Of a stretch of DNA of 64,000 bases, positions 508 to 58,260 are shown in pieces. The position numbers were made by a program, and so were the translations under genes. The stretch covers positions 1-64,000 of IMG/VR virus record IMGVR_UViG_3300031774_000005; one strand, given 5' to 3'. Position 1 is the stretch's first letter. Every line of letters begins with the position of its first letter. The DNA comes from a virus. The notes below the pieces were generated by a model. The model was not told the origin of the DNA. It worked only from the letters and a program-made list of their open reading frames with translations, and did not search any database.

Positions 508-1876
508 TTTGTTTAAAGAAATGTCTAAAGAAGAACTCCAACAACTATGGAGCGAGACAATGGGAGATAAACCATTTCCTATGAACAGGTCGGAAAACTC
601 CCCTTTGGATTCTTTTTATCCGATTGATAATTTTATAGTTTTTATGAAAGAAGGCAAACCTATTTCCGGACTTGGTTATTCTACAAGAGATGGGTTTAGT
701 CTTAGGGGCGGAGCATTTACTATTCCCGAAGAAAGAAATTCGGGGGTTTATAAAAAAGTAGCAAGTGAAGCAGATAGAATAATCCCTACTCCTTCTATTG
801 CAGGTTTTTCTTCATCTAATATTGATTCGGAAGAATGGAATGAAAAGGCAAAAGGTAGGGGTTGGATGATTAAACCCACTGATGAAGAGTTAGGAGAGTA
901 TGCAGATAATCCAACAATTAAAGCATTCAAAGATTATTATGATAATCACCCAAAGGGGGCATCTTGGGGAGTCAAAGGATTATCTTTGAAAAAGTGGTTT
1001 AGTATTCTTAAGTCATATAGAATGGAAATGGGTTCAGCAGGGTTTAATGTTCTCGATGCTTCGGGTAAAGTTTTGAATTACAAAGGACTTAGCCGTTCAC
1101 AAGCAAAGACTTTTATTACAGAATTACAAGAAGGAAAAGATGTAAGCAGGTTCACTACAAAACCTCGTAAATCTATTAGGGGCAATTGGTTTAATCAATT
1201 GAAAAAAATTGACCCTAATAGTGGTGGTTATGTGAAGTTGCCAATGAGCGATATTGACGAACAACAGGTAGAAACTCCTTTTATGATTAACATAGTTGAT
1301 GGTGTTGCTATTCTTTTTAATGCTCATTATCATTATAGATATTCTCAAAGAAGAAATACCGGACTAACTATTATGGATAATACAATAGCAAGAAAATTTA
1401 TTGCTCTTGAGCCTGTTTTAGAAGGTTGGAGTTATATTGATGATGATTCTAAAAACCATTCTCATGTTATGTTTGATAGATTGAATAGCCCAACTGATGT
1501 TATTAAAAGAACTAATCCTAAAAAAACTATTGGCGACATAAGAAATCCCGAAACGGGAGAACCAATTACCGAAGCAGTTGTGTTTCATCATATTAATGAC
1601 GGCCATGATTCACCGGATAAAGAAAAGAAAAGAGATATATTTTATTTTAAGAATGAAGGTATTAAACCAAATCATAAGCAAAAGTTGGGTGTGTCTCAAA
1701 AGAAAAGAACAGATAAAGATAAGCCGAAAGAATTAGTTGTTAATCCTCGACAACCCAAAGAAGAAAAACCGAAAGAAGAAAAACCAAAGAAAGAATTAAC
1801 AGGAAAGCCACCCGAACAAAAACTTCCGCCTCCCCCTAAAAAGAAAAGAAGGCCAAATAGACAAAGAAGGTGGTAA
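494..1876 (+). CDS. GNAT-like acetyltransferase domain fused to a C-terminal head-region domain
   Basis: A 460-residue, probably multidomain protein. Residues 40-140 resemble a GNAT fold: a strand ending in ISGLGYST, then a GGAFTIPEERNSGVYKKV stretch placed like the acetyl-CoA binding loop, then EEWNEKAKGRGWMI near the end. Around residue 165 is KKWFSILKS, the same motif found at the N-termini of neighbouring proteins; here it would separate the GNAT-like part from the C-terminal half. The last 70 residues are rich in Lys, Pro and Glu with repeats of PKEEK. It overlaps the previous gene by 14 bases and ends just before the terminase. The GNAT call is tentative; the acetyl acceptor is unknown. 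Confidence 0.5.
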   Translation: MRGLDLFKEMSKEELQQLWSETMGDKPFPMNRSENSPLDSFYPIDNFIVFMKEGKPISGLGYSTRDGFSLRGGAFTIPEERNSGVYKKVASEADRIIPTPSIAGFSSSNIDSEEWNEKAKGRGWMIKPTDEELGEYADNPTIKAFKDYYDNHPKGASWGVKGLSLKKWFSILKSYRMEMGSAGFNVLDASGKVLNYKGLSRSQAKTFITELQEGKDVSRFTTKPRKSIRGNWFNQLKKIDPNSGGYVKLPMSDIDEQQVETPFMINIVDGVAILFNAHYHYRYSQRRNTGLTIMDNTIARKFIALEPVLEGWSYIDDDSKNHSHVMFDRLNSPTDVIKRTNPKKTIGDIRNPETGEPITEAVVFHHINDGHDSPDKEKKRDIFYFKNEGIKPNHKQKLGVSQKKRTDKDKPKELVVNPRQPKEEKPKEEKPKKELTGKPPEQKLPPPPKKKRRPNRQRRW

Positions 1877-1878
1877 TT

Positions 1879-3312
1879 ATGGAAGAATTAGAAGCATTTA
1901 ATTTTGAACATGAAATGGATATGAAATTATCCAAAAACTCTTTTCCTTATTTTTTTCAAAATGTATTAGGTTTTGATTTTCCTCCATACATACAAGAATG
2001 GCATGAATTAATGAACTCTACTCAAAGAACTGTAATTATTTGTTCAAGAGACCACGGAAAATCTGTTTTTATGCATAGTTGGGTTGTTTGGAAATTAATC
2101 TTTGAAAAGCCACCATATCAAATGCTTTATATTTCTTCTAACCAAAAGCAGACTTTAGTTCACATGAGAGACATTGATAAGATGTTCACTCATCCTATGC
2201 TTAAAAAGTATAAACCCGCAAGAGGTTGGGCTATTGGTAATATTACTTTAACTAACGGTAATCAAATCTTAGAGCGTTCCGTTGGTTCACAGATTAGAGG
2301 ACTTCACCCTCAAGAGATTATTATTGACGACCCTTTGAAAGAGTTTAGTATGACAGGTATTCAAAAAGTCACAGATTGGTTTTATGGTGACATGATACCA
2401 ACACTTCACCACACCGCTTCTCTAAGAGTTATTGGAACTCCATTTAGTTATACAGATATATACCAACAGTTAGCAGAAAATCCTGCATATACTGTCAATA
2501 CTTATCCTTGTTTTAATGCGTTAAATGAACCCTTATGGCCGGAAAGATGGAACTATGATGCACTAATGGCTCGTAAAGCGGAAGTCGGTTCTTTGATGTT
2601 CACAAGAGAATATATGTGTGTTCCTATTTCAACGGGAACATCTTTGTTTAACCCCGAACATTTGGATAATGCCAAGAATAAAGACTTAATATTGAAGCCC
2701 TTAAAGAGAGAAGGCTACAAATACTTCGTCGGTGTAGACCCTGCTATTTCTACTGATGGAGATTACAATGTAATTACTGTAATAGAAATGGATGCAGAAG
2801 AAAATAAATCAATTATTTATATTGACCGAGCCAAGAATGTTCAATTTAGAGAAAACATACAGAAGGTCAAACTTATCGGTCAAATATTTAGACCCGAAGT
2901 TATTTTATTTGAAACAAACACATTCGCTAAGTCATTTACTCAAGAGTTGAGACAAGTGGCTGATTTAAATGTCCATGACTTTAATACAACAAGGAGAAAG
3001 AAGCAGGAGATTATTCTTAATCTACAAATGACTCTTGAAAATGGAAAACTAAATTTTCCTTATGGGAATGAAGAGAGCAGAAAAGTCTCTTCTATATTAA
3101 TTGAAGAACTGTCTATGTTTGCTATTACTGAAAGAGGCAAGTTTGAAGGAATAGGGGCGCACGACGATATGGTTATGAGTTTAGCATTAGCAAATGCCGC
3201 AACATACCAAGCCAACGATAACTTCATACTATTAGATGATTTAGGGCTATTTAATGAAACTCCTAATGATGGGAGAAAGCCTGTTAGAAATGCAATAGGA
3301 TTAAATTTTTGA
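1879..3312 (+). CDS. terL: Terminase large subunit (packaging ATPase-nuclease)
   Basis: 477 residues, normal for the family. The ATPase half has Walker A CSRDHGKS (residues 55-62) and Walker B EIIIDDPL (146-153). The RNase H-like nuclease half has the acidic residues D287 (VGVDPA), E345 (LFETN) and D429/D430 (AHDDMVMSLALA). It cuts concatemeric DNA and drives it through the portal into the prohead. ATG 1879 was chosen over GTG 1870 because AAGGTGG sits five bases before it and the GTG overlaps the previous stop. Portal and capsid genes follow on the same strand. Confidence 0.95.
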   Translation: MEELEAFNFEHEMDMKLSKNSFPYFFQNVLGFDFPPYIQEWHELMNSTQRTVIICSRDHGKSVFMHSWVVWKLIFEKPPYQMLYISSNQKQTLVHMRDIDKMFTHPMLKKYKPARGWAIGNITLTNGNQILERSVGSQIRGLHPQEIIIDDPLKEFSMTGIQKVTDWFYGDMIPTLHHTASLRVIGTPFSYTDIYQQLAENPAYTVNTYPCFNALNEPLWPERWNYDALMARKAEVGSLMFTREYMCVPISTGTSLFNPEHLDNAKNKDLILKPLKREGYKYFVGVDPAISTDGDYNVITVIEMDAEENKSIIYIDRAKNVQFRENIQKVKLIGQIFRPEVILFETNTFAKSFTQELRQVADLNVHDFNTTRRKKQEIILNLQMTLENGKLNFPYGNEESRKVSSILIEELSMFAITERGKFEGIGAHDDMVMSLALANAATYQANDNFILLDDLGLFNETPNDGRKPVRNAIGLNF

Positions 3313-3321
3313 GGTTTTATT

Positions 3322-3714
3322 ATGGGTTGGTTTAGTATTTTAAAAATAGGAAATACCTATCCTTCACCAAAATATACAACCTTTATGGTTCATGATAATG
3401 TTTGGAATAGTGCTAATATGATTAATAATGTTGGTGGTATTAGAGAATTAGAAATGTCTTTAGGTAGAGAATTAACCGAGAAAGATTTTACCGATGCTCC
3501 TGTTAATTGGTCTAATAAATATTGGAATGAATGGAGGGCAAAAAACGCTACTCCTGATGAAATAAATGCAGATAGTGATTCCATAAAAAGAAAAAAAGAA
3601 ATATTAGGCGAAGAAGGAAGAAAAAAATTAGCAAGAAGTTATTTGAATAACGATAGACCAAACAAATATCCGGATAGAATAAAAGAAGCAGAAAGAATAT
3701 TGGGGGTCGTGTGA
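3322..3714 (+). CDS. Unidentified 130-residue protein beginning MGWFSILK
   Basis: No family recognised. It begins MGWFSILKI, the clearest example of the N-terminal W-F-x-I-L-K tag shared with 7147 and 18415. The body is hydrophilic and Trp/Asn rich in the middle (VNWSNKYWNEWRAK) with a charged helical tail (IKRKKEILGEEGRKKL). It lies directly between terminase and the LAGLIDADG fusion protein, so a head-internal or packaging role is likely. GAGGTTTTATT before the ATG provides the ribosome site. Confidence 0.7.
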   Translation: MGWFSILKIGNTYPSPKYTTFMVHDNVWNSANMINNVGGIRELEMSLGRELTEKDFTDAPVNWSNKYWNEWRAKNATPDEINADSDSIKRKKEILGEEGRKKLARSYLNNDRPNKYPDRIKEAERILGVV

Positions 3715-3715
3715 A

Positions 3716-5092
3716 ATGTCGGAAGCAGGGGATAAAGTTAGAGAAACAATGAGGCAGATGGGAGAGTTAGCCAACATTGAAGATAAAAAAGCAAAGACAC
3801 AAGAAGAAATAAAAAGACTTAGTGCAGAAAAAAATGAAGAAGTGCAAGCAAGTCTCTTTACAAATACTCATGTTCTATCCGAGCATGAGGAAATAACAAA
3901 ACTTGCAGACCATCTTAACATAAATGCAACAGAAGCAAGAAAACAATTAGATAATTTTCCTAATGAATATTTAGTCCAAGAACATACTATTCCCGATGTA
4001 GTAAGAAAAATGAGAAAGGCTCGCAGGGCTTTGAAAGGTGAACAAAGAATCAAAATGTCAAAGGCGATTGATACAATGATTGATGCTTATGCCGACCATT
4101 TACAAAAGTGCATTGGGTCAATAACATGGTTAAACGATTATACAATTCCTTTATCTAAAATGAGATACAATGAAAAAGATTTAGTTAAACTAAATAAAAT
4201 GAAAAGTAGTGAATTAAGAAGAGAAACAATTGATGCTCTTTGTAAATATTGGGAAGCAGAATTAGAACAAAAAGATATGGCTTATGGTAAAGAATATAGC
4301 GATTTATTTAAGACAATGAAAACTGCAAAGAAACAATTTAGAAATACAATAAATAAAATAACTAATCAATCTATTTCTAAAAGTAAAAAACAAAGACAAG
4401 AAGATTTTATTTTAAAAACTGTATGCGAAAATCCGGGTATTTCTGCTAAAGGAATACATGAAAGAATGCCGTCTCAACTGTTTAAAATATCAAGTCCTAA
4501 TAATATATCTAAAGTAATTAAAAAATTAGATATTGCTTCAAATGAGGGTTCTTATTATAAGATGCCATCTATGATTAAAAAGAATATTTGGGCTTATACT
4601 GCGGCTTTCATTGACTCCGATGGATATATTACATTAGACCGTAATATGAATCCAAGAGTGGGTTTAGTTGCCACAGGTGAAAGAGGCAAGGTGTTTATGA
4701 AAGAAATGCACAAATCATTAGGATTTGGCCGTATGCACTTAGACCAAAAATCCCCACAACAAACCCGCTTAATTAACAGACTTAATTTTTATTCTCAAGC
4801 AGATGTTAGCCAACTATTAACTAAGTGCCTACCACATTTTAGATTAAAGAAAGGTAATGCTAAATTATTATTAGAATTAATTCGTATGAAAAAAGCACAC
4901 AAGAAGGCCGATTGGTATAAAGGAAGATGTGATGAGATATTTAAGTTAATGAAATGGGAAAACCATAAAGACCATGTGGGTTTCGATTGGTTGAAAGAGG
5001 GAATTTATCTTGACAATATACAGAAATACAAAGACAACTGCAAAATGTCAGTCATGGATAGTTTAGAAACAGTAGGCGGTATTCTTGTTTAG
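3716..5092 (+). CDS. Coiled-coil / winged-helix protein with a C-terminal LAGLIDADG domain
   Basis: 458 residues. The first 220 are helical and charged. A winged-helix-like segment covers about 230-285 (ENPGISAKGIHERM, then ISKVIKKLDIASNEG). A LAGLIDADG domain follows: TAAFIDSDG ends at 303 and keeps both acidic residues, D300 and D302. It is followed by strands and helices typical of one LAGLIDADG repeat (PRVGLVAT, KSLGFG, FYSQADVSQLLTKCLPHF, KLLLELI). Such enzymes usually are free-standing or inside introns or inteins. Here the domain is fused to a long helical region between terminase and portal, suggesting either a homing nuclease using a packaging gene as carrier or a domesticated packaging factor. 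Its stop overlaps the next mini-gene. Confidence 0.75.
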   Translation: MSEAGDKVRETMRQMGELANIEDKKAKTQEEIKRLSAEKNEEVQASLFTNTHVLSEHEEITKLADHLNINATEARKQLDNFPNEYLVQEHTIPDVVRKMRKARRALKGEQRIKMSKAIDTMIDAYADHLQKCIGSITWLNDYTIPLSKMRYNEKDLVKLNKMKSSELRRETIDALCKYWEAELEQKDMAYGKEYSDLFKTMKTAKKQFRNTINKITNQSISKSKKQRQEDFILKTVCENPGISAKGIHERMPSQLFKISSPNNISKVIKKLDIASNEGSYYKMPSMIKKNIWAYTAAFIDSDGYITLDRNMNPRVGLVATGERGKVFMKEMHKSLGFGRMHLDQKSPQQTRLINRLNFYSQADVSQLLTKCLPHFRLKKGNAKLLLELIRMKKAHKKADWYKGRCDEIFKLMKWENHKDHVGFDWLKEGIYLDNIQKYKDNCKMSVMDSLETVGGILV

Positions 5093-5506: not shown

Positions 5507-7147
5507 ATGGTTGAGCAAAAAAGAAGATTTAGCCTAACCAACCTGTTTAGGCGTTCTACTCCTAAACCTGCGGATAGAACCGTATTTAATATGGGAATCC
5601 AAGAAAGGGAAACACATCACATGATGAATGGCCCGATTATTTACAATATTGTTAATCAATCAGTTATTGCGAGAACCTGTATTACTCAATTGAAACAAGA
5701 AGTTTTTCGTAGAGGCTACATTTGGGAAAAAGCATTTGAAGCCCGATGTGAGGATTGTAAAAAGGAACATACAAGACCTGTTCAAGAATGCTCAAGATGC
5801 AAAAGCACAAACTTAACACTTCCTAATATAGAACAATTAGAGTATGCTGAAAAATTCTTAGAAGGATATGTCAATAAATCGGAACAACTTTTTATTGATG
5901 TATTGCAGGAATTAGAAGATGATTTGAATATTATGGATGATGCCTATATTGTTTTGGTAAAAGAATACTTTTTAGATGGTAATGGTAAAATTAGAATGCA
6001 CCGTATTAAAGAATTATATCGTGGCGACCCTGTGACTATGTTTATTTATTCCGATGAGTTAGGACAAAGGGGAACAAAAGGATTTACTTGCGTTAATCAT
6101 AGGCAGATGATTTACAAAGACCCACATGAACCTTGCGAGCATTGTGGAGCAAATACTTTTCCTGTGCATTATGTAAATAGAGTCAATGGAGAAGACCAAC
6201 ATTTCCTAAAAGGAGAAGTTTTGCATTTTAGTAAATACAGTCCATCAAGACTTTATGGTATGTCTCCTGTAATTACTTTATTTAATAATATTATGACTCT
6301 TATTGCTATGGAAAATTATGTCAATTCTTCATATACCAAGAGCAGAATGCCAAAAGGAATACTTGCAGTTCAAACAAGAAATATGGATTCAATGAAATCT
6401 TTTTGGAGAGCAGTAAAAGAAAAAATGGAAGCCGACCCACATTTTATTCCTGTTATGGGTATTGAAGCCGAGAATGGTAAAGGTGCGGTTGAGTGGGTTA
6501 AGTTTATGGATAGTCTAAAAGAAATGGATTATGTTTCTGTTAAAGATGATTTAAGAGATAGAATATCAGCCTTTTATGGAGTAAGTAAAGTTTTCATGGC
6601 TGATAATACTACAAGCGGTGGATTAAACAATGAAGGTATGCAAATACTTGTCACTAATAGAGCAGTTCAAAAAGCACAAACTGTCTATAATAATTATGTA
6701 TTCCCATTCCTCATAAAACAATTTGGAATTACTGATTGGAATTTAAAACTTCCACCAAGCGAAGAAGAAGATGAAATAGCAGTATTAAGGAAGAGAGAGT
6801 TAGAAGTAAATATTGCGGCCTCTACTAAAAATTTAGGATTTGAAGTTGATATGGATGAAGATGGAAACTTTACCTTTACTAAACCTGAACCGGAAGAATC
6901 AAAAGAAGGTGAAGGTGGAGAAGAACAAGTTGAAACAGACCCTTATGCCGGAACTAATATAGATGCCTCCCAATTAGGACAAATGCAGGAGCAAGCATTA
7001 CAGGGCGGAAGTAAGCCACAAGCAAATCCAGCAACAACAAGAAATAAACCATCTATGAATCAAGGGCCGGATAAAAGAATGTCAGGATTACCATTAGAAG
7101 CAGGAAACCAAAACAACGATAAAAGAACTGAAAGGAGGGTTAATTAA
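5507..7147 (+). CDS. Portal protein with two inserted zinc-binding sites
   Basis: 546 residues. Order, size and the conserved core fit the portal ring through which DNA enters the head: LHFSKYSPSRLYGMSP, the MENYVNSSYTK helix, and LRDRISAFYGVSK followed by SGGLNNEGM. Unusual for portals are cysteine pairs at C81/C84 with C95/C98, and C195/H198 with C210/C213, which look like two zinc ribbons in the N-terminal wing. The C-terminal 80 residues are Glu, Gly and Gln rich and probably disordered. GGGGTATAATT precedes ATG 5507. The stop overlaps the next start by one base. Confidence 0.88.
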   Translation: MVEQKRRFSLTNLFRRSTPKPADRTVFNMGIQERETHHMMNGPIIYNIVNQSVIARTCITQLKQEVFRRGYIWEKAFEARCEDCKKEHTRPVQECSRCKSTNLTLPNIEQLEYAEKFLEGYVNKSEQLFIDVLQELEDDLNIMDDAYIVLVKEYFLDGNGKIRMHRIKELYRGDPVTMFIYSDELGQRGTKGFTCVNHRQMIYKDPHEPCEHCGANTFPVHYVNRVNGEDQHFLKGEVLHFSKYSPSRLYGMSPVITLFNNIMTLIAMENYVNSSYTKSRMPKGILAVQTRNMDSMKSFWRAVKEKMEADPHFIPVMGIEAENGKGAVEWVKFMDSLKEMDYVSVKDDLRDRISAFYGVSKVFMADNTTSGGLNNEGMQILVTNRAVQKAQTVYNNYVFPFLIKQFGITDWNLKLPPSEEEDEIAVLRKRELEVNIAASTKNLGFEVDMDEDGNFTFTKPEPEESKEGEGGEEQVETDPYAGTNIDASQLGQMQEQALQGGSKPQANPATTRNKPSMNQGPDKRMSGLPLEAGNQNNDKRTERRVN

Positions 7148-7539
7148 TGAATTGGCTAAGTATTTTAAAGAATAAAAGAAGTTTCAAGGATTTGAGACAA
7201 TTAAGAGAAGAAGGCGTTAGAGAAGGAAAACAAAGAAGAAAGTCTCCAACTCCTATGTCGGGTGGCGACCCCCAACCAAATAAAAGGAGACATACTCAAG
7301 CAATAGCGGGAGGAACAGAAGGTGGATTTTATGGTGATGAAAAAGAACCGTTTGATGAAACCGAAGAAGATAGATACACAAGACAATCTTTAGCAAATTC
7401 AACTCTTTTTGACCTAAAAGATAAGGTTAGAAGTATGTTAGATAATTTAACGCAAGATGAACTGATTGATATTTTAATTGCTTCTCAAGGAGAAGTAGGA
7501 ATTTTGGGAATTAAACTCGCAAACAGGAGAGGAAAGTAA
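7147..7539 (+). CDS. Unidentified 130-residue protein beginning MNWLSILK
   Basis: No family recognised. It begins MNWLSILKN, the same tag as MGWFSILK at 3322. A basic, Gly-rich middle (residues 20-60) is followed by an acidic helical end with the segment TLFDLKDKVRSMLDNL. Directly behind the portal, it is a candidate head-internal protein. Start and stop codons overlap those of both neighbours. Confidence 0.7.
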   Translation: MNWLSILKNKRSFKDLRQLREEGVREGKQRRKSPTPMSGGDPQPNKRRHTQAIAGGTEGGFYGDEKEPFDETEEDRYTRQSLANSTLFDLKDKVRSMLDNLTQDELIDILIASQGEVGILGIKLANRRGK

Positions 7540-7763
7540 TGACAGAAGATTTAAGACAAAAACAAATAAGACTAACAAAGGAGTTAGCACAAGTAAAGGC
7601 ATTGACCGCACAAGAAAATAATAAAGTAAAAAAGAATAGGGATATGTCGGTAGGACTACCAACAGATACTACGCATAAAGCAAGGCCGGAATCAAACGGT
7701 AATCCCGATGTTATTTTGTTGCCTTCTAAGAAAAGAAAGAGTTCGGAAAACATTCCATTTTAA
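7539..7763 (+). CDS. Small charged helical protein
   Basis: 74 residues, translationally coupled to the previous gene through TAATG. The N-terminal half is a strongly charged helix (LRQKQIRLTKELAQVKAL); the C-terminal half is polar with a basic end (SKKRKSS). Unknown function within the head gene cluster. Confidence 0.55.
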   Translation: MTEDLRQKQIRLTKELAQVKALTAQENNKVKKNRDMSVGLPTDTTHKARPESNGNPDVILLPSKKRKSSENIPF

Positions 7764-7772
7764 GGTGATTAA

Positions 7773-9401
7773 ATGATATTTGAATTATCTAAAGATAAGT
7801 CCTTGCTTCATGTATTAAGTAAGGTAGAGTTAGATGAAGACACTAAGGCTTTAGTGAAAGCAAAAGCGAGTCCTTCGGAAATAAAAAAATCTTTAGTTAA
7901 TAATCTTAATCCCTCTAATATGATTTCATATAGAAAATATATTAAAAAGGCAGAAGAAGAAGAGAAAGAAGACGACGACGAAACATACGGGTTCGCTGAT
8001 GATGAATCAGGAGAAGAAGAATCATTAGGAACTTCAAGTGAAGATTATCTAAGTAGTGAAGAAAGAGAGTCACGCTTAGAATCAGCAGAAATTGAATCCG
8101 ATATTCAATTGATGGAAGATGAAAAAGCCGCCTATAAATATTTAATTGAACTATCATCTAAACTTAAACCTCTTCAAGAAATAATGCAAAATGCAAGAGT
8201 TGAAGAACAAACTTTCAAGACGAGAAAGGCAGAAAAAAAGAAAGATGTCGTTGTTGGGGGAATGAAAAATTTCCTTAAAGTAAGTGGTAGCCAAGATAAC
8301 TCCATCAAAACACTACAAGATTTGAGAAGTATTAAAGCAGATAAAAATTATTTATTTACAGAATATGGTCGTTTATTGATTGAAGGTGTTCTAAAAGGAA
8401 AGGATTTCAAAAGAGACAAGGAAACTCGACAATTTGAAATTAAGTTAAATGAAAAGAAAAACATTGATGTAAAGCAATTACAAGATGATTTTGTTGCGCT
8501 ATTGTCTCAAGATATTGAAGGTAAAGATATTCTTGATATTATGAAAATGTTGCATCAACAACAATACGGTAGAACGCCAAAAACAATGCAGAATAGAGGC
8601 CAAAGAGCAAGAGAATTACGAGGCATGATGATGTTTGCTCAAGGAAAAAGCCAAAAAGTTCAAAGAGAATATAAGGCAATCAAAGATGATATAAAGGAAC
8701 TTAGAGACGAGGCAACTAAAATAAGAAATAAAAAAGAGTTTGTTGAAGAAACAATTCAAAAAATAGAAGAAATAATGCAAGACCCTGAAAAAATAGTTCT
8801 TGAGAAAATTAAAAGATTAAGACGGGGAATTATGACATTAATTAATTCCGCAGGAACAAAGCCTGAAGAAGTTAAAAAATTAATGGATAGAATTAAAGAA
8901 ATGGATAACAATAAAGAAAAATATATCAAAGAAGCCACAAGAGAAATCCAAGAAGATTTAGAGACTGAACAGGCTAAACTACAACACTACATGATTACTT
9001 TAAATGTGGCTGATAGACTCAAAGACCCTCTTAGTGGCTTTATAAGAATAGTTAATATGTTCCAAGAAAACGACCCAATAGACGCTCTTAAAAGAAAAAT
9101 AACAAGAGCCGGAAATATTGTTGTTAAATTATTTAACCAAGCAAAGGGGATAGAAATATTTGCTTCTCGTAAAGAAGATGGGATTGAGGGAGGCATAAGT
9201 GCCTATTTAACAGATAACCCCAAAGTCAAACTAACTCTTGATGCAGAAGGATTAGAGTTTGATGGCCTTCCAACAATTGATGCAGAAGCAGTTAGAAGAA
9301 TGGGAGAATTTGAAGATAAATTTAATGTTAAAGTTGATGAATTACAAGAGATTGTAAATCAACTAAATCACATGATAGACGGAAAGGGTGAAGAAGAATG
9401 A
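7773..9401 (+). CDS. Long coiled-coil head-region protein
   Basis: 542 residues, extremely rich in Glu and Lys. Acidic low-complexity sequence (EEEEKEDDDE) lies near residue 70 and predicted coiled coils run across about 100-470. It contains no enzyme motif I can see. AAGGTGATTAAATG supplies a perfect extended Shine-Dalgarno sequence. Its position between portal and protease suggests an internal, core or scaffold-like protein. The stop overlaps the next start as ATGA. Confidence 0.6.
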   Translation: MIFELSKDKSLLHVLSKVELDEDTKALVKAKASPSEIKKSLVNNLNPSNMISYRKYIKKAEEEEKEDDDETYGFADDESGEEESLGTSSEDYLSSEERESRLESAEIESDIQLMEDEKAAYKYLIELSSKLKPLQEIMQNARVEEQTFKTRKAEKKKDVVVGGMKNFLKVSGSQDNSIKTLQDLRSIKADKNYLFTEYGRLLIEGVLKGKDFKRDKETRQFEIKLNEKKNIDVKQLQDDFVALLSQDIEGKDILDIMKMLHQQQYGRTPKTMQNRGQRARELRGMMMFAQGKSQKVQREYKAIKDDIKELRDEATKIRNKKEFVEETIQKIEEIMQDPEKIVLEKIKRLRRGIMTLINSAGTKPEEVKKLMDRIKEMDNNKEKYIKEATREIQEDLETEQAKLQHYMITLNVADRLKDPLSGFIRIVNMFQENDPIDALKRKITRAGNIVVKLFNQAKGIEIFASRKEDGIEGGISAYLTDNPKVKLTLDAEGLEFDGLPTIDAEAVRRMGEFEDKFNVKVDELQEIVNQLNHMIDGKGEEE

Positions 9402-9766
9402 CATGGGATTTTTACGGTGAAGGAGAAGATTTTATCCTAAAGGCTGAAAAGCAAGAGCCAAAAGAAGTTCTTGATTCATTAGATTCTAAAGGCAGAAAGA
9501 AACTCAAAAAGACACTACAAGCGGCTGAACCAACAGAATTTTTTGGACAGGACTTTACTAAGTTAGGAGAATTAATTTCAACTCTTAGAGAATTAGATTT
9601 AACTAAGTCCGATAAAGTCTTAAACAAGAAAATGAAATCAATGGATGAGCGCAACATTGATATTGTGGCTACCGCTACCAAACTTCGTAAAGAGTATGAA
9701 CTTCTATATAGACAATTAAGAGACATTGTTTATCCAACAGGAGGAAAGAAGAATGACAAAAAATAA
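9398..9766 (+). CDS. Small helical protein with N-terminal W...FILK-A
   Basis: 122 residues starting MTWDFYGEGEDFILKAEK. The Trp near the start and FILK followed by Ala resemble the tag on neighbouring head proteins with a spacer. The rest is helical and charged (LGELISTLRELDLTKSDKVL). It is coupled to the previous gene through ATGA. Unknown function, probably head-internal. Confidence 0.6.
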   Translation: MTWDFYGEGEDFILKAEKQEPKEVLDSLDSKGRKKLKKTLQAAEPTEFFGQDFTKLGELISTLRELDLTKSDKVLNKKMKSMDERNIDIVATATKLRKEYELLYRQLRDIVYPTGGKKNDKK

Positions 9767-10007
9767 AACAATAAATGAAGAACTGCTAACAATAATTAAG
9801 GCTTTAACAAATAAAGTTGAAGAATTAGAAAGAACCGTATATTCAAAGGATAGTATTTTAAGAAAGGCCGGATTCGTTGTATCTAATAGCCCGACACCTG
9901 CTATTGATAATTCAATAGGTGGAGTTGGTGCATTACCAACAACAGATATTAGCAGCATGGATTGGTCGGAAATACACAAAATGGTAGAACAAGTGGAGGG
10001 AAACTAA
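9753..10007 (+). CDS. 84-residue protein sharing its C-terminal tail with the protease-scaffold
   Basis: ATG 9753 is chosen because GGAGGAAAG precedes it. Residues 5-32 form a short coiled coil (LLTIIKALTNKVEELERTV), then a Pro/Gly/Ser linker. It ends with MDWSEIHKMVEQVEGN; residues 70-78 are nearly identical to the end of the protease-scaffold protein at 13553 (MDWSDIHKMVGGLN). Since scaffold C-termini commonly bind capsid protein, this may be a second scaffold or a core protein docking to the same surface. SILRKA around residue 35 is a weaker form of the ILK motif. Confidence 0.6.
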   Translation: MTKNKTINEELLTIIKALTNKVEELERTVYSKDSILRKAGFVVSNSPTPAIDNSIGGVGALPTTDISSMDWSEIHKMVEQVEGN

Positions 10008-10584: not shown

Positions 10585-13509
10585 ATGAAACTCGGCTCTA
10601 TTGAGAAGGATAAACAACCTTCTCAAGAAATATTAAGACTCTTTGAAAAAACAAGAGTTGCTTATTTATCAGCAGTTCACGACCCCGATGAATACGGAGG
10701 CCGTTGGAGAAAAGCGGTTGATTTAATCATAGAATCATATGAAGAATTAGATGCCGCAGGTAAAGAGTTAAGGAATTTTATTGATGAAGATGAAATAGAA
10801 GATAAAGAAGTTAAAAACCCAATATCAAGAGAAGCGAAAGACTTGTTTGAGAAAATAAAACTCATTAGATACTCTTCTAAAATAGTTGCTGACCCTTTTG
10901 CTGAAATGTTCAAAGGTAGTGTCCTTGAAGAATTGTTAGATAATCCCGAAACTATGGTGAAATTCATTCATTATGCACTAAGAGACGACAATAAAGCACT
11001 ATCTCCGGACATTTTAGCCATTAAAGGTATGCAACCCGACACAATAACGGAGGGTCTTGTTGGACTTGACCTTGAATCGGATGATATTGCCCTCTATATT
11101 ATAGAGCATTACGGTGATGGAAAAGACTCAAAGAAGGTTGAATCGAAAGTAAAGGCAGGAATGGAACTATTAGAACTTATTTTCTTTTCTCAACATGAAG
11201 AGAAAGAATGGACAGACTTAAAAGAAATAGAAGGATTAGAGAAATCACAAAAAGAATTAACAGAAAAGTCCATTTCTCAATTTATTGTTCCTAATAAACC
11301 AATGTATAGGATATTTGGGATAGACGACATTAATGAATTAAAAGGCTTTAGTGGTAATTGGTATGTCCAAGAGAAATATGACGGTATGAGAATACAGTTG
11401 CATAAAATAGATGGCTCGGTTAAAATTTATTCTTACAATGAAAAAGACATTACTGCTAAGTGCAAAGAACAGGTTGAAGAACTTAAGAAAAAAGAATACG
11501 GAGATTGTATTTTAGATGGAGAGTTAATTCTTTTTGATGGTGATGATGCACTACATAGAGCAGATACTATTGCTCATGTTTTCAAAGGCAAATACAAAGA
11601 CGCTAAATTAAAGTGTCATGTGTTTGATATTATTCGACATGAATCCCAAACATTAACAGATGAAGATTTAGAAGATAGAATGACTATTTTATTCAATAAT
11701 TATTCAGCAAAGTCTAATCAAGCAATTGCTTATCCTTCTAAAAAAGATACAAGACAGGCTGATAGTCTAAAAGATGTTGAAAAGTATGCGAAAGAAATGA
11801 TGGATATTCCCACTTCCGAAGGAGTTGTTATTAAAGATGCAACTTCAACATATTATATTGGAACTAAAAAGAACCCTAAATGGATTAAATGGAAGAAGTT
11901 TGTTGATTTAGATGTAATTGTTTTAGATAAGAAAAAGACGAAAAGCAATCTTTATTCATATACTGTGGGCGTTGGGCCAATTCCGGAAGATATGGAAGGA
12001 CAAGAAATTGATGGTAAAAAGTATCTTAGTGTTGGTAAAGCATTGAATACTAAAGTAGCCGTTAATGTTGGAGATATTGTTAGAGTCAAAGTTGATGAAG
12101 TTAAGAAAAAAGGAGATGGGTTTAGTTTATTTTCAGCAAAGGTAATTGAAATACCGGAAGTCGAACACCCCGATAAATTAGTCACTCTTGAACTTCTATC
12201 ACAAGATACCAAAAAATCACTTAACTATAATGTAGAAGCATTAACAAAGGGAATCAAAATAACTGATTATATACATGGTGAAACAAATGTAATCATGAAA
12301 TCGGATATGAATGGCTTTGTAATCTATGGTTTTGAAGAAGATAATCTAATGTCTAAGAATGCTTTGGCAGATTTGGATATGTGGAAAGCCCAAGCAGAAG
12401 AAATAATGAAAACTAAAGCAAGTCAATTAACGGTTGCTATTTTTCAGTATCTAAAAACAATGGGAGACAAGACAGTAAATGATGTTCATGACTTTTTGAA
12501 GGACAAACACAAAGATATTTATGAAGATGTATTAGAATCTAAAAAGACTAAATTGAAAGATTGGTCGGATAATAGAGACGGTATTTCATTCAAAGATAAG
12601 AAACTTCATGCTGATGATGATAAAATTATGCAAGAAGAAGAAATTATGAAATCACTTTTAATTAAAAATCAAAGACAAGAATTAATCCAAAGAATAAAAC
12701 AGGAACAGGAACAGGAACAAGGACAAGGACAAATCGCTATTGAAGCAGATATGTCGGGTGATTGTTGCACTCAATTAAAACATAAAATTATTGAAAATAG
12801 AAAACGCCAACTTGAATATTTAATGGGAAATAAATCTTGGGAAGAACTGAAAAATAACCCCCAATACAATTTATCATCTTTTGATAATTATAATTCTTTA
12901 GAAGAAACGATGGATTGGTATTCTAATTTTATAATGAATCGGGATTGTGAATGGTTAGCGACGGAATTTATTAGTGAAAAGAATAAAGAAGAGTGGAAGA
13001 GTGTAGAAGAATATAATGAATGTTTATATGGTGAAGGATTTTCCGATAAATACGCTATGTTAAAAGAATACAAAACCCCAAAAGAAAATAGAAAGGGTTT
13101 GTTTAAAATATATTCAAGAGAAGATGATAATATAACATTAGGTATTAAACTTGAAGATGAAAGTTTATTTTGGACTATTGACTTAGATAACCAAGAAGAA
13201 ATGTTTGATTTGTTTGGTGCGGCAGGAAAATATCCGGCAGAAGTGGCTAAAAATGTCGAAAGAGGAAAGGTAGTTGATGCAGGAGATATTGAGTTAGGTG
13301 TCCAAAAAGAAGGTTATCATGAATACTTCTTGAAAGGTAATAAATTTGAAACTAAGATGCATTTTAGAGTAATCAAGGTTGAAGGAAAAGAAATGTGGCT
13401 TGCATGGACAGGATATAAACAAGAACCTGCTGATACAGAAGGCGATAAAGGTTTATGGAATATATATGAAGATAAATACAGTAAATTGTCAATTCCGGCT
13501 AAAAATTAG
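10585..13509 (+). CDS. Giant ATP-dependent DNA ligase in the head module, with possible degenerate phosphoesterase-like C-terminus
   Basis: 974 residues, far longer than usual ATP ligases (about 300-600). Helical N-terminus about 1-250. Adenylation domain: motif I EKYDGMR with nucleophile K264, motif III LDGELILFDG, CHVFDII, motif IV SEGVVIKD, motif V WIKWKKF. An OB-like domain follows (VGDIVRVKVDEVKKKGDGF). After a helical region and a Gln/Glu repeat, the last 110 residues (GIKLEDESLFWTIDL ... YFLKGNKFETKMHFRVI ... MWLAWTGYKQEPAD) resemble the LigD 3'-phosphoesterase fold, but the usual catalytic histidines are absent. A complete second ligase lies at 58257-59792. Location suggests a virion-linked ligase, perhaps acting on incoming genome ends. 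Confidence 0.8.
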   Translation: MKLGSIEKDKQPSQEILRLFEKTRVAYLSAVHDPDEYGGRWRKAVDLIIESYEELDAAGKELRNFIDEDEIEDKEVKNPISREAKDLFEKIKLIRYSSKIVADPFAEMFKGSVLEELLDNPETMVKFIHYALRDDNKALSPDILAIKGMQPDTITEGLVGLDLESDDIALYIIEHYGDGKDSKKVESKVKAGMELLELIFFSQHEEKEWTDLKEIEGLEKSQKELTEKSISQFIVPNKPMYRIFGIDDINELKGFSGNWYVQEKYDGMRIQLHKIDGSVKIYSYNEKDITAKCKEQVEELKKKEYGDCILDGELILFDGDDALHRADTIAHVFKGKYKDAKLKCHVFDIIRHESQTLTDEDLEDRMTILFNNYSAKSNQAIAYPSKKDTRQADSLKDVEKYAKEMMDIPTSEGVVIKDATSTYYIGTKKNPKWIKWKKFVDLDVIVLDKKKTKSNLYSYTVGVGPIPEDMEGQEIDGKKYLSVGKALNTKVAVNVGDIVRVKVDEVKKKGDGFSLFSAKVIEIPEVEHPDKLVTLELLSQDTKKSLNYNVEALTKGIKITDYIHGETNVIMKSDMNGFVIYGFEEDNLMSKNALADLDMWKAQAEEIMKTKASQLTVAIFQYLKTMGDKTVNDVHDFLKDKHKDIYEDVLESKKTKLKDWSDNRDGISFKDKKLHADDDKIMQEEEIMKSLLIKNQRQELIQRIKQEQEQEQGQGQIAIEADMSGDCCTQLKHKIIENRKRQLEYLMGNKSWEELKNNPQYNLSSFDNYNSLEETMDWYSNFIMNRDCEWLATEFISEKNKEEWKSVEEYNECLYGEGFSDKYAMLKEYKTPKENRKGLFKIYSREDDNITLGIKLEDESLFWTIDLDNQEEMFDLFGAAGKYPAEVAKNVERGKVVDAGDIELGVQKEGYHEYFLKGNKFETKMHFRVIKVEGKEMWLAWTGYKQEPADTEGDKGLWNIYEDKYSKLSIPAKN
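12699..12732 (+). repeat. Hexanucleotide repeat coding Gln-Glu / Gln-Gly
   Basis: Tandem ACAGGA-type hexamers inside the large ligase gene, drifting to ACAAGG. They code a QEQEQEQGQGQ linker between helical and C-terminal domains. Probably grown by slippage; length may vary between relatives. Confidence 0.7.
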
Positions 13510-13524: not shown

Positions 13525-13552
13525 TGGATAGTATAAGAAAGGGTTGAGAGGA

Positions 13553-14737
13553 ATGGTATCATCTGTAATGAATAGAAGCAGACACGATTTCAGGATTCTT
13601 AAAGCACAAGACGATTTAATGATTGGAGGATATGCAAGCATCGAAATCGTTGATAAACAAAATGACTTAATCACACTCAAAGCACTTAACGAAGCAGTTA
13701 AAAAATATATGGAGAACCCAAAGTTTAGAAATGTAATGACAAATCATTCTAATGTTCAAGTTGGAGAAGTAGTAAAATCATATAGAGACAAAGCAGGGAA
13801 GTTATGGAAAACCGAAGTTGATGATGTAGGATTCTTTGTAGTAATTAAGTTAAGAGACGATATAGAAAAAGCCAAAGAAATTAATAGAGGCATAAGAAAA
13901 GGTTCATTGAGGTCATTTAGTATTGGAGGACAGGCTTTAGAAAAAGTAAAGAAAAACCACCAAGAATTAGGAGATTACAATGAAATTAGCAAACTTGAAT
14001 TACATGAAGTAACAATATGTGAAAAAGGAATTAACCCCGAAGCAAGATTTGATATTTTAAAGCAAGAAAAAAACACAAAAAAGGAAGTGAAAAATATGAG
14101 CAAAATAGAAAAAGCACTTGAAGAGTTAGATGCGCTAATGGCAGAAGTCAATACTCTACGCAAGGAAGAAGAAGAAGAAAAAACAGAACCTTTGACCGAA
14201 GAAATGGATAAAGGCGAATACATGGACACCACAGAAGAGGAAGATTTAGACACCGAAGCAAAAGCGGTTCTAAATACTCTTGATGCTGGCGGAATAGAAA
14301 TAGGCGAACCTGCTGATAGAGTTGTTATTAGCGGTGGAAAGCCTAAAGCATCTGATTTGCCCGTTGTTAAAGCATTTGACAACAGCGAATTAGAAACTCT
14401 TGATTTGTCCGTTGGAAACATTGAGAAGGCTTACGAGGCTTTCCGTCAAGAACAACTTGAAAAGTTGGCTTACGATAACCTCCAAAAGTCATTTGAAACA
14501 AGATTTAACCACGAAGTTTCTGCAAAAGAATCTATTTTGGCAAAATCTCAATATGATGCGGCAAGTGAAATTGCATCTCTAAAGGATGAATTTACCGCAT
14601 TAAGAAAGTCTCTAACTGCTGAAAAGGAAACAATCCTAAAAGCACAAGAAGAGGCAACCGTTGAACTCCCATCTATGGATGAATTGGCCGAAATGGATTG
14701 GTCGGATATTCATAAAATGGTCGGAGGACTTAATTGA
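13553..14737 (+). CDS. Prohead maturation protease (S78/XkdF-like) fused to scaffold
   Basis: 394 residues from ATG 13553. Residues 20-160 fit the XkdF-type protease: GGYASIEIVDKQNDLI, probable catalytic H65 in TNHSNVQVGEVV, serine in GSLRSFSIGG (121/123), and LELHEVTICEKGINPEA. Residues 182-394 are an acidic coiled-coil scaffold ending MDWSDIHKMVGGLN. The protease is flanked by ILK motifs: FRILK-AQ (13-19) and FDILK-QE (166-172); a third, TILK-AQ (360-365), precedes the tail. This spacing suggests self-cleavage that frees protease from scaffold. An in-frame ATG with its own ribosome site at 14096 may make scaffold alone. The capsid gene follows. Confidence 0.85.
   Translation: MVSSVMNRSRHDFRILKAQDDLMIGGYASIEIVDKQNDLITLKALNEAVKKYMENPKFRNVMTNHSNVQVGEVVKSYRDKAGKLWKTEVDDVGFFVVIKLRDDIEKAKEINRGIRKGSLRSFSIGGQALEKVKKNHQELGDYNEISKLELHEVTICEKGINPEARFDILKQEKNTKKEVKNMSKIEKALEELDALMAEVNTLRKEEEEEKTEPLTEEMDKGEYMDTTEEEDLDTEAKAVLNTLDAGGIEIGEPADRVVISGGKPKASDLPVVKAFDNSELETLDLSVGNIEKAYEAFRQEQLEKLAYDNLQKSFETRFNHEVSAKESILAKSQYDAASEIASLKDEFTALRKSLTAEKETILKAQEEATVELPSMDELAEMDWSDIHKMVGGLN
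14096..14737 (+). CDS. Nested in-frame scaffold protein (internal start)
   Basis: ATG 14096 (Met 182 of the protease-scaffold) is preceded by AAGGAAGTGAAAAAT. The leader of the SSB-like gene at 54645 is almost identical (AGGAAAGTGAAAAAT before ATG), which supports real initiation here. The product would be a 213-residue coiled-coil scaffold beginning MSKIEKALEEL and carrying the C-terminal tail. This mirrors lambda C/Nu3, where a scaffold is made from an internal start in the protease gene. Expression from this site is inferred, not shown. Confidence 0.55.
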   Translation: MSKIEKALEELDALMAEVNTLRKEEEEEKTEPLTEEMDKGEYMDTTEEEDLDTEAKAVLNTLDAGGIEIGEPADRVVISGGKPKASDLPVVKAFDNSELETLDLSVGNIEKAYEAFRQEQLEKLAYDNLQKSFETRFNHEVSAKESILAKSQYDAASEIASLKDEFTALRKSLTAEKETILKAQEEATVELPSMDELAEMDWSDIHKMVGGLN

Positions 14738-14749: not shown

Positions 14750-16102
14750 ATGACAGGATATATTAATACAATAGCAGACTTAGAAGCACAAACCTATGGA
14801 ACAGGCGCAACAGGCCATATTAGCAATCAATTGCTTAAGGCCGCAGGAACAGTAGCAGGTATTCATACTGCACACGATGGCTCGTTAAGCGCACCATCGG
14901 GCATTAACGCAAATCTTTACAACAAGATTTACGGCCAAAAAGTATGGTCTATGCTAAACCGAGAATGTAATGCACTATCGGTTATTTCAAAAAGACCTTA
15001 TTCATCAAGTGGTTGGAGAATTTTAAAGAAAAGACCTGCCGGTGGAGCAGGAAACCAATTAGATGTTTCTGCCGCTTCAAATACCGCATTAAGTGATGGA
15101 TTATATGGTGCTGATGCACTTAGAGCAGACCGTCTTGGTGGTGTTCCGGAAAATGCAAGTCTTGATTCAAATACAGATGGTTTGATTTCAATTGCACCGG
15201 AATATGATACACTATTTACAAGCCCTAAGATTATTGCACATCAATTCTCTTTCAGTGAATTGGCTATGGAAATGGCTTCTATTGATGATGGAATTGGCGA
15301 TATTAGAGCGCAACTAAGAGAAGATATGGGCAAGCATCACGCAGAAGTCCAAAACCAAATGCTTGTTATGCCTTTGGAAAACTATTCTCCAACAACTGCT
15401 TATGCTACCGCAAATGCCATTGATAGAGGATATACTTCTCTATTGAAGATTGTTTCTAACTCGGCTGAAATTACCGAATTAGCGGATAACTCCGGTGGAA
15501 ACCTTGTAGATGGTGCAACAGACCAAGCAATTGATACACTTTATGGAAAACTACGAAGTGCAGCAGGAAATGAATATCTTGATTCCGAAGTTTCTTTCGG
15601 TGATGGCTACCTTTCAGCAGAAGCACGACAATTAACTCTAACTGTTCTAAACGATATGATTAGAAGACTAAGAGTTGCCGGTGGTTCTCCAAAGGTTATT
15701 CTAACAGGATATGATACTCTACAAACTATCTCGGACTTGCTACAAGCCCAAGAAAGATTCATGGATAGAAAGGAAATTGTTCCAACTGTTAATGGAGTAA
15801 GAGGCGTAAAGGGTCAAGAAGTCGGATTTAGAGTTTCAACTTACTACGACATACCAATGATTCCGGTTGCTGCTATGACTTCAACAGGAACAAACTCTTC
15901 TTTGATTAGTGATATGCTTTTCCTTGATACAGACCATTTGTGGCTATCTGTTATGAAACCAACTCAATACTTTGAAGATGGTATTTCAAACGGAAACCCA
16001 TTCGGTGTCGGTTCTCTTGGAAACAAGGCTCTTTACCGAACAATGGGAGAAATGGGCTGTTCATACTTTAAGGGTCAAGGCAAAATTACAAACCTTCTGT
16101 GA
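14750..16102 (+). CDS. Major capsid protein (HK97-fold expected)
   Basis: 450 residues directly behind the protease-scaffold, the canonical place. Its composition (many Ala, Gly, Ser; a central region ISIAPEYDTLFTSPKII and an end with KPTQYFEDG) fits a head shell protein, though HK97 folds cannot be proven by eye. The first 30 residues end in NQLLK followed by AAG, resembling the ILK-Ala motif, so an N-terminal delta-like peptide may be removed during maturation. GAAGGTGATTTATT precedes the ATG. Confidence 0.8.
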   Translation: MTGYINTIADLEAQTYGTGATGHISNQLLKAAGTVAGIHTAHDGSLSAPSGINANLYNKIYGQKVWSMLNRECNALSVISKRPYSSSGWRILKKRPAGGAGNQLDVSAASNTALSDGLYGADALRADRLGGVPENASLDSNTDGLISIAPEYDTLFTSPKIIAHQFSFSELAMEMASIDDGIGDIRAQLREDMGKHHAEVQNQMLVMPLENYSPTTAYATANAIDRGYTSLLKIVSNSAEITELADNSGGNLVDGATDQAIDTLYGKLRSAAGNEYLDSEVSFGDGYLSAEARQLTLTVLNDMIRRLRVAGGSPKVILTGYDTLQTISDLLQAQERFMDRKEIVPTVNGVRGVKGQEVGFRVSTYYDIPMIPVAAMTSTGTNSSLISDMLFLDTDHLWLSVMKPTQYFEDGISNGNPFGVGSLGNKALYRTMGEMGCSYFKGQGKITNLL

Positions 16103-17740: not shown

Positions 17741-18409
17741 ATGTCATTAATGACAGGCTTTGCTATATTAGTTGGTGAAGCAGTTATTGGTTTTTGGAAG
17801 AAAGTCCACGCTATTAATTTTGGAGTGTATGGAGCAACAATGGTTGGTAAAACAACACTAAGTCACCAATTAAGAACAAGGGGAGAAGTTCCTCAAATTA
17901 ATGAAAGAACAGTAGGACTACATAGAGCATCGAGAAAAAATGTAAAAATTGATGGTGATTCACATACAATAAAAAGTGCTGACATAGGAGGGGAAGCGAT
18001 TTATTGGAAAGAATGGGTCAAAGATATGCAAAAGCGTAGAGTAAAATATATTATTTTTATGATAGACCATAGGCATTTAGATAATGAAGCAAATTTAGAC
18101 CATCAAGTAGCATGGAAGTTTTTAGTTGATACCATTGTGTCGGATTTATGGCCAACAAATAGGAAAAAAAGAGAATCGGATTATCCTATGGCTATCGGAA
18201 TATGGGCTAACAAATATGACATATGGGGAGAAAAATATCCATTAGAAGAAGGCCAAACCATAGACAAACATAAAATATTTGAACCTTTTAAGTATGGAAT
18301 GAGGCAGTTGAACGACAAGGGAATACCTTGTTTCAAATATATAGTATCGGCAAAATCAGACCCCGAAATGGTATATAGAGGCGTAATGACGATGATAAAG
18401 GATTATTGA
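17741..18409 (+). CDS. Small GTPase of Arf/Ras type
   Basis: 222 residues with all five GTPase motifs in order: G1 GATMVGKT (31-38), G2 threonine in RTVGL (T57), G3 DIGGE (81-85), G4 NKYD in WANKYD (157-160), G5 SAK (203-205). The D-x-G-G form of G3 and the TVGL switch are Arf-like; Arf has Gln where this has Glu85, so hydrolysis may differ. The first 25 residues are hydrophobic or amphipathic and could contact membrane. Two membrane protein genes precede it and an ADP-ribosyltransferase-like gene follows. Complete small GTPases are unexpected in a virus head-tail region. A MglA- or Arf-like switch acting on host membrane or on virion assembly is possible. Confidence 0.85.
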   Translation: MSLMTGFAILVGEAVIGFWKKVHAINFGVYGATMVGKTTLSHQLRTRGEVPQINERTVGLHRASRKNVKIDGDSHTIKSADIGGEAIYWKEWVKDMQKRRVKYIIFMIDHRHLDNEANLDHQVAWKFLVDTIVSDLWPTNRKKRESDYPMAIGIWANKYDIWGEKYPLEEGQTIDKHKIFEPFKYGMRQLNDKGIPCFKYIVSAKSDPEMVYRGVMTMIKDY

Positions 18410-18414
18410 TTATT

Positions 18415-18975
18415 ATGTGGTTTAATATCTTAAAAAGACAAACTAAATTATACAATTATGACCCAGATTTTTTAAATCCTTATGGCGAAGTGTCTCACTT
18501 TCATGGAAGCAGGGCATCAAAAGAAAAATTATTAGAAGAAGGATTAAAACCTCAAGGAAAATATATTAGTCATCCTAAAGGATATACAAAAGAACATTAT
18601 AGAGATTTAGTTAAACCCGATAATAAAAATAAAAAATCATTGATATGGGCGGCAGGAAAAGAACAAGGACTTCCCTTAGAATACGGAGAATCTAAAGAAA
18701 ATGTCAAAGAAACAAAAGTTGATTATAATTCTTTATTTGATGAAAGGGGAATGCTATTACCAAATCCTAAAATTCTTGAATCTAACAAAACTATAAGGAC
18801 AGAAGGAAATATAGTAGGCATTAGAGGAAAGGATATTGATTGGAACAGAAGCGAGTCACCTATTTACAAAATAGGAACAAAATGGTATATCCATAATAAA
18901 CCAATTGACCCAGATAGATTAGTATTTCTAACAATAGAACAATGGAAAAAATATTTAAACAAGAAAGGCGATTAA
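18415..18975 (+). CDS. ADP-ribosyltransferase/Tpt1-like protein with N-terminal FNILK tag
   Basis: 186 residues from ATG 18415 (TTG 18406 overlaps the previous stop). It begins MWFNILKR, the tag shared with head proteins. Residues 28-45 read HFHGSRASKEKLLEEGLKP, matching the first motif of the ART/RNA 2'-phosphotransferase superfamily (H-G-S/T, helix, then G-L-x-P). Near the end KWYIHNKPIDPDRLVFL fits the final strand with I-x-P-x-x-L seen in many members. No certain catalytic Glu can be assigned. If it is packaged and injected, it would parallel T4 Alt, a tagged and processed ART. Fold call is by pattern only. Confidence 0.5.
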   Translation: MWFNILKRQTKLYNYDPDFLNPYGEVSHFHGSRASKEKLLEEGLKPQGKYISHPKGYTKEHYRDLVKPDNKNKKSLIWAAGKEQGLPLEYGESKENVKETKVDYNSLFDERGMLLPNPKILESNKTIRTEGNIVGIRGKDIDWNRSESPIYKIGTKWYIHNKPIDPDRLVFLTIEQWKKYLNKKGD

Positions 18976-47254: not shown

Positions 47255-47467
47255 TCACCTGTCTATTTGTAATTGTTTAATTTCTTGAAATGACGCTCTT
47301 AATTCAGCGCACATATGGTCGTATAAAAAAACTAAATACTCTTCAAAAGTATAATCTCTAAACTGTTCATAATCGTCTTTTTCGGATTTATAATCTAAAT
47401 ATAAACCGTCTCTTACCTCTTCTAATCTTTCTCTTTCTAATAATATTTCATCTTCTCTCAAAACCAT
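47255..47467 (-). CDS. Small acidic helical protein
   Basis: 70 residues if started at ATG 47467 (MVLREDEILLERERLEEVRD); a start at 47518 adds 17 residues but overlaps PolB-C more. Acidic helices and YTFEEYLVFLYDHM. Overlaps the end of PolB-C by 10 bases. No family. Confidence 0.5.
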   Translation of the reverse strand: MVLREDEILLERERLEEVRDGLYLDYKSEKDDYEQFRDYTFEEYLVFLYDHMCAELRASFQEIKQLQIDR

Positions 47468-57870: not shown

Positions 57871-58260
57871 TCATTCCTCTTCCATTGGTTCTAACGCCTG
57901 TTGTAATACTGCTTTAATTAAGCCAATATCATCATTTCCATTCTCTATAAAATTAAGAGCAGTTAGTATGATGTGCTTATGTCTTTGGTCGTCAAGAGCG
58001 TATTTATCATTCTCAAGCATACCTAAAGTTTGAGCAATCTTCTTTTTGGCATCTTTTCTTTGATAGTTTGTTTCGCCTTGTTGATGTAAAAGAATAAATC
58101 TTCTTTGATATAAACCAAGAAGATGAACATATTGAGTTCTTATTCTTCTCATGATATTCCTAATTTCACGATTAGTTTGGTTCATTGATAAATCACTTAT
58201 CTTTATACTTCTACCAAATATATCTGTCATGTATTTAGTATTCCATGATGCACCTTTCAT
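57871..58260 (-). CDS. Unidentified helical protein
   Basis: 129 residues, basic and helical (NREIRNIMRRIRTQYVHLLG; KKKIAQTLGMLENDKYAL), ending PMEEE. No motif. Coupled on both sides to ligase and histone-fold genes. Confidence 0.55.
   Translation of the reverse strand: MKGASWNTKYMTDIFGRSIKISDLSMNQTNREIRNIMRRIRTQYVHLLGLYQRRFILLHQQGETNYQRKDAKKKIAQTLGMLENDKYALDDQRHKHIILTALNFIENGNDDIGLIKAVLQQALEPMEEE

Follow-up and report, generated by a model that had tools for sequence, protein, structure and literature searches.

The window analysed here comprises 64,000 nucleotides, positions 1–64,000 of the 75,473-base virus record IMGVR_UViG_3300031774_000005. At positions 10585–13509 on the plus strand, it contains an intact ORF that runs from an ATG to a stop codon without internal stops and encodes a 974-residue protein (head ligase) identified as an ATP-dependent ligase by Pfam and by sequence and fold matches to solved ligases. 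Upstream on the same strand, family scans identify the terminase large subunit, TerL (1870–3312), and the portal protein (5507–7147; Phage_portal, 9e-12; phrog_18178, 1e-62). Downstream, again on the plus strand, an S78/XkdF-type head maturation protease recognised in family scans (13544–14737) starts 34 bases past the ligase stop codon and is followed by the major capsid protein gene (14750–16102), whose product matches, and is nearest to, the capsid protein of the Haloarcula tailed virus HCTV-1. A conventional ATP-dependent DNA ligase of 511 residues, in which Pfam recognises both the middle and the C-terminal ligase domain, is encoded in the replication arm (58257–59792, minus strand). The initial annotation, which described a second ATP ligase in the head module, flanked by structural genes and coexisting with a normal ligase in the replication arm, is confirmed in these respects.

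The gene content of the virus further includes a family B DNA polymerase split over two genes (47458–48348 and 49608–51263, minus strand), a clamp-loader-type AAA ATPase, a weak match to a sliding clamp, and Cpn60; the head and replication arms are opposed in the genome. This content points to a magrovirus-like virus of marine archaea, a placement made by gene content and not by a tree. The gene content and the arms fit the Magrovirales, although the record is 75 kb long compared with genomes of 90–110 kb in that group. Among 23 related records, chosen mostly for length, the head ligase is present in all 23 and the replicative ligase also in 14. Both ligases are found in each of the 12 records of at least 77 kb, and the nine that lack the replicative ligase are all shorter than 74 kb; therefore, having two ligases appears to be usual in these viruses and not peculiar to one genome. 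One locus, L010 (IMGVR_UViG_3300021958_000021, 184,733 bases), encodes two replicative and two head ligases and looks like two virus genomes joined in assembly.

Scans of viral contigs identify 328 and 542 stretches that encode relatives of the head ligase, so that the gene is far from a chance occurrence. The best 80 of the 328 and the best 80 of the 542 stretches were retained; a collection of 155 loci yielded 134 full-length readings and 92 distinct proteins. Comparison with four relatives gives dN/dS values of about 0.26, 0.06, 0.10 and 0.12 and, judging from these ratios, the head ligase is under purifying selection. The gene neighborhood is strongly conserved as well: the head protease is encoded directly downstream of the head ligase in all 78 loci with a long enough flank, the capsid gene lies within 3.2 kb in all 55 loci with enough flank, and in 54 of the 56 loci where the flank suffices the portal gene is found no more than 6.5 kb upstream, on the same strand.

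The head ligase is a multidomain protein. The N-terminal helical region (residues 1–229; 10585–11271) yields no family match in family scans and is delineated with the help of a full-length AF2 model, which is poor (pLDDT 64.6, pTM 0.31) and from which only the ligase core and the rough order of helices and strands were taken. It is followed by the ATP ligase adenylation domain (residues 253–437; 11341–11895), defined by Pfam and alignment, with motif I, KYDGMR, including the catalytic lysine K264, aligned at 11374–11391. An OB-type domain (approximately residues 440–542; 11902–12210) comes next; residues 229–542, that is, the adenylation and OB-type domains, match DNA ligases by fold, and solved archaeal and human ligases match the protein in sequence comparison. 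A winged-helix-like helical stretch (approximately residues 597–676; 12373–12612) is suggested by the model only, with low to middling confidence. The C-terminal part consists of a 137-residue insert (residues 690–826; 12652–13062), delimited by alignment, and a domain (residues 828–974; 13066–13506) that fold comparison, a profile bridge and alignment suggest to be a degenerate LigD-type 3'-phosphoesterase (PE). Of the 92 distinct ligases, 19 have the insert and 73 lack it; it is cleanly missing from relatives that are 97% identical elsewhere, e.g., L015. It holds a conserved CCxxLK stretch; a search for a homologue elsewhere returned chance-level matches only.

Pfam DNA_ligase_A_M matches residues 253–437 with an E-value of 3.8e-30. 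The same protein shows a weak match to Pfam RNA_ligase (27.8 bits, barely above the cut-off of 27; E = 3.2e-6), which could mean that it is an RNA ligase or another RNA-repair enzyme, injected or made late, that acts against host RNA-cutting defences. This would be in line with the frequency of RNA-directed domains among polyvalent proteins in the accessible text of PMC5512222. However, the protein matches the DNA ligase profile much better, DNA ligases are the best fold matches, and domains of DNA methylase and pyrimidine-dimer glycosylase type are found in the more distant relatives described below, so that we consider an RNA substrate highly improbable.

The ORF had been credited with complete ligase motifs. 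This holds for motifs I, III, IIIa, IV and V, whose key residues, among them the catalytic lysine and the DxE, EG and KxK residues, are invariant in all 92 distinct relatives, but not for the classical motif VI (RxDK), which is not recognisable in the OB domain in the alignment of these 92 sequences. In its place (residues 515–531; 12127–12177), the head ligases have SAKVIEIPEVxxPDK, with the core residues invariant throughout. The Pfam ligase C-terminal domain does not match the head ligase, whereas it matches the replicative ligase at 1e-14, and the latter carries the classical motif VI, RFPRCVRIRDDK. Motif VI serves self-adenylation; with no recognisable motif VI, both the charging of the head ligase and its activity on ATP are uncertain.

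The C-terminal domain is highly conserved, with 42 invariant positions among 147 columns in an alignment of 53 sequences (54 dereplicated domains were available; L086 was left out because it comes from a bacterial genome bin). Modelled alone with AF2, the domain gives a pLDDT of 90.7 and a pTM of 0.86, and the six best PDB chains in a Foldseek search started with this model are all LigD-type phosphoesterases. A VIA-align comparison of the model returns 3p43 (Z 10.5, rmsd 2.7, 103 residues), 3p4h (10.3, 2.1, 93), 3n9b (9.2, 3.3, 107), 3n9d (9.0, 3.0, 102), 5dmp (8.1, 2.6, 99) and 2lj6 (7.9, 3.2, 103), with the first unrelated row, at Z 3.3, below all six listed LigD-PE entries. Direct profile searches from this region come up empty: family searches with Pfam, PHROGs and PF13298 on the record detect nothing in it, hmmsearch of PDB sequences with the domain does not find LigD PE, and neither hhalign nor hmmsearch links it to 8 LigD PE domains selected by residue pattern from 14 loci. 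Taken by themselves, these searches would suggest a domain unrelated to LigD PE, a reading overturned by the fold search and by intermediate sequences. A PE-signature DNA pattern identifies 11 viral stretches, 8 of which are PE domains (the bridge set, plus the domain from ANMV-1). Between the bridge set with the ANMV-1 domain and LigD PE, the E-value is 2.9e-12 (115 columns); between the magrovirus domain and the bridge set it is 3.3e-11 (54 columns), compared with 0.097 for a reversed profile. Hence the proposed resemblance of the C-terminus to LigD PE is borne out, and a profile search does reach LigD PE, albeit only through the bridge.

In the accessible text of PMC8656161, the metal residues of LigD PE are His42, His48 and Asp50, and the phosphate is contacted by Arg52, His84 and Tyr88 (Pseudomonas aeruginosa numbering). 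The bridge PE domains retain the QxH...HxDxR pattern in all five aligned sequences. In the magrovirus domains, histidine occurs in at most 14 of the 92 sequences at any position of 838–866, in agreement with the noted loss of the catalytic histidine; in an alignment made by eye, the catalytic places are taken by Y843, R845, T/N851, V/A/S/G853 and K855. Because the metal-binding histidines are gone, this domain cannot hold the known PE metal site. Thus, judged from profiles and the predicted fold, it is a LigD-type PE by descent that has lost its metal site, and in one widespread marine virus group a PE domain appears to persist without its active site. In a scan of cellular genomes, the domain is detected only in two contigs, both binned as Maricaulis (L085 and L086; NZMJ01000024.1 and NZMJ01000133.1), which look like misbinned virus. 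The closest viral structure in BFVD belongs to an 827-residue protein that is 56% identical within the domain; hence the family is already in databases, without description.

The loss of both motif VI and the PE active site raises the possibility that the head ligase is a structural component of the head or the portal vertex, in which the ligase fold is kept without enzyme activity and the ligase and PE domains bind DNA. We find this improbable given that the invariance of the catalytic lysine, DxE, EG and KxK exceeds the needs of DNA binding alone.

The bridge alignment contains no ligase residues; searched against viral contigs, it identifies 46 other contigs with an intact-type PE. A ligase domain is encoded in 38 of these: 25 have it in the PE ORF itself and 13 in another ORF of the same strand. 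Records with the XkdF-type head protease (PF14550) number 24 of the 46; in 20 it lies inside the PE ORF, and in 14 contigs PE, ligase and XkdF protease form one ORF. When the 46 PE ORFs are clustered at 90% identity, 34 clusters remain, of which 29 have a ligase, 17 a ligase in the same ORF and 9 the triple fusion. Pfam detects both ligase and XkdF protease in all five giant ORFs scanned, and the PHROG head-maturation protease models match four of five proteins scanned, missing L241; adding phrog_133 as a second protease model gained little. A portal protein is recognised in 21 of the 46 contigs; a scripted rule for portals near the PE ORF finds 19 and misses L202, in which the portal gene overlaps the ORF start by 61 bases. 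Some of these PE-ligase cousins possess extra domains, namely, a D12 DNA methylase (L190, L196, L226 and L238), a metallo-beta-lactamase (L190) and a match to pyrimidine-dimer glycosylase (L188). In L190, the order is TerL, portal, a methylase-ligase-lactamase protein, a PE-ligase protein, one gene without assignment and the capsid protein. A crude RxDK pattern is found after the ligase domain in 2 of 33 cousins, which, the pattern being crude, is no proof that motif VI is missing. A match in Aeromonas phage PVN05 (E = 7e-3; annotation and family scan) was given no weight.

In a tree of 55 ligase domains, which includes four of the eight intended magrovirus head rows, the magrovirus head ligases group with the PE-linked and ANMV-1 ligases (95/90), and the magrovirus replicative ligases and cellular LigD stand apart from them. 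Because of long branches, this placement is tentative; with the same caveat, the tree lends no support to an origin of the head ligase by duplication of the virus's own replicative ligase. Taken together, these comparisons suggest that the magrovirus head ligase is part of a real and conserved, wider set of head-linked multidomain enzymes with LigD-like parts. What appears to be new here is this family of 46 PE-encoding contigs, most with a predicted ligase and 14 with the predicted fusion to the XkdF head-maturation protease. Fusion of ligase-PE to the head protease ties the family to the prohead and, with the protease adjoining the ligase throughout the magroviruses, upholds the association with the head; it is seen in the distant viruses and in none of the magroviruses.

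The closest cellular analog is LigD of bacterial and archaeal non-homologous end joining, in which an ATP ligase is likewise linked to a 3'-phosphoesterase domain with the same fold. Unlike LigD, the head ligase is encoded in a head-gene context, with no Ku and no polymerase domain found, it has lost the PE metal site, and its ligase domain falls outside the cellular LigD clade in the tentative tree. The present case places LigD-type PE domains in viral head modules, outside the known Ku-based repair pathway. As described in the accessible text of PMC7719229, mycobacteriophages Omega and Corndog employ Ku-based end joining at infection; they bring Ku and borrow the host LigD, whereas the magrovirus has a ligase-PE protein and no Ku. 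Ku is found in none of the 36 viral records searched, the source record included, so that this is not a route of the Omega/Corndog type, and Ku-dependent end joining is ruled out as far as a search of these records can test it.

Among viruses, the ANMV-1 ligase AJP62006.1 similarly combines a ligase with a C-terminal PE-type domain and is encoded between the portal gene and that of a protein ending in a MuF-type domain; it differs from the head ligase in keeping the H...HxD pattern, in having another N-terminus and in lacking the insert, and the stretch common to the two C-termini spans 38 columns. The whole ANMV-1 ligase-PE protein finds no relatives in viral contigs. In the same genome (L083, KP703175.1), the product of 1913–3193, annotated as 'MutT-like phage hydrolase', is the portal protein (Phage_portal_3, 3e-22), and 5868–9368 encodes a 1166-residue cysteine-rich protein with a C-terminal MuF-type head-morphogenesis domain. 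In HCTV-1, a MuF-like protein and a zeta-toxin protein are encoded between the portal and capsid genes. The polyvalent proteins of tailed phages (Iyer et al. 2017) are comparable as large multidomain enzymes of the head module that are thought to be injected; the accessible part of that literature mentions neither a DNA ligase that carries a LigD-type PE nor a fusion of such a protein to XkdF. Judged by its genes alone, the head ligase has the hallmark of head-packaged proteins, a multidomain protein encoded beside portal, protease and capsid genes. The available text of PMC7318539 mentions in passing a magrovirus ligase gene beside the prohead protease gene. Accessible texts on magrovirus families list one ATP-dependent DNA ligase, placed under replication, and do not discuss the head copy or its PE end. 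The open-access literature yields nothing further on a virion ligase or on XkdF with a DNA ligase; given this scope of the search, an earlier mention of the ligase-protease pairing is possible.

Of these gene comparisons, the fusion to the head protease gives the strongest clue to the mechanism. Because the ligase and PE domains are fused to the protease in the cousins, they are expected inside the prohead when the protease acts; because the same gene order stands unfused in magroviruses, their ligase is probably head-loaded and delivered with the DNA. Gene position and fusion are evidence of co-assembly but not of delivery. In the main competing explanation, the protein is a late ligase active in the infected cell during packaging: it would seal nicks in concatemeric DNA at which the terminase-portal motor might otherwise stall or cut, and would itself stay out of the particle. 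The gene order with TerL, portal and protease, from which late expression follows, and the existence of a separate early ligase are compatible with such a role. Nevertheless, we regard it as rather unlikely, for the one-ORF protease fusions would put the ligase inside the prohead and not in the cytoplasm.

With a confidence that goes slightly past even, we therefore favor a different role: the head ligase would be a head-associated member of a viral ligase-PE family, made with or fused to the head protease, that is packaged and seals the entering genome. It is best read as a head-loaded, injected nick- or end-sealing enzyme, with PE turned into a docking domain; the head loading, the delivery, the ligase activity and the substrate are what we infer. 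The ligase would be drawn into the prohead during head assembly (within the protease chain in those cousins that have the fusion, where the protease presumably would cut it free), enclosed with the DNA, and enter the host alongside it, where it would seal nicks or ends of the entering genome before the replicative ligase is made. Nick sealing is as likely as joining of the genome ends. In magroviruses, 3'-end trimming by the PE would be lost, and the domain more likely holds on to DNA that is nicked or broken, or keeps the protein in the head.

A broader proposition, less likely than not when all its parts are taken jointly, is that tailed viruses, archaeal ones included, carry an injected, Ku-free, LigD-like end-sealing kit, in which the magrovirus PE serves as a DNA-end clamp. 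Such a kit would comprise ligase and 3'-phosphoesterase, in some viruses with DNA methylase, glycosylase or metallo-beta-lactamase domains; the enzymes would be built into the prohead within the protease chain, freed at maturation and injected, and would heal and close the arriving genome. A single-use ligase, loaded with AMP ahead of packaging, would be in keeping with the missing motif VI. Genome healing and circularisation after entry, before viral gene expression, are understood for few tailed viruses. If a ligase indeed rides in the head, this step would become testable in many uncultured virus groups, and DNA end sealing would join the list of injected functions.

Several other features of the head arm deserve mention. 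The product of 3716–5092, between TerL and the portal, has a homing-endonuclease-like end (phrog_5046, HNH endonuclease, E = 1.5e-4). A 93-residue protein (9726–10007) and the head protease have in common the C-terminal string MDWS[ED]IHKMV, which resembles a common scaffold- or capsid-binding tail. The hexamer W[FLMIVY]x[ILVF][LIF]K (in MWFSILK, MNWLSILK and MWFNILK) marks small head-arm proteins; it is absent from the N-terminus of the head ligase, a point against the favored head loading, is N-terminal in the products of 3322–3714, 7147–7539 and 18406–18975, and is internal in that of 494–1876. Across 20 magrovirus loci, the hexamer has 18 matches in 543 ORFs, compared with 1.75 in shuffles, and 15 of the 18 are N-terminal; it may be a capsid-docking tag.
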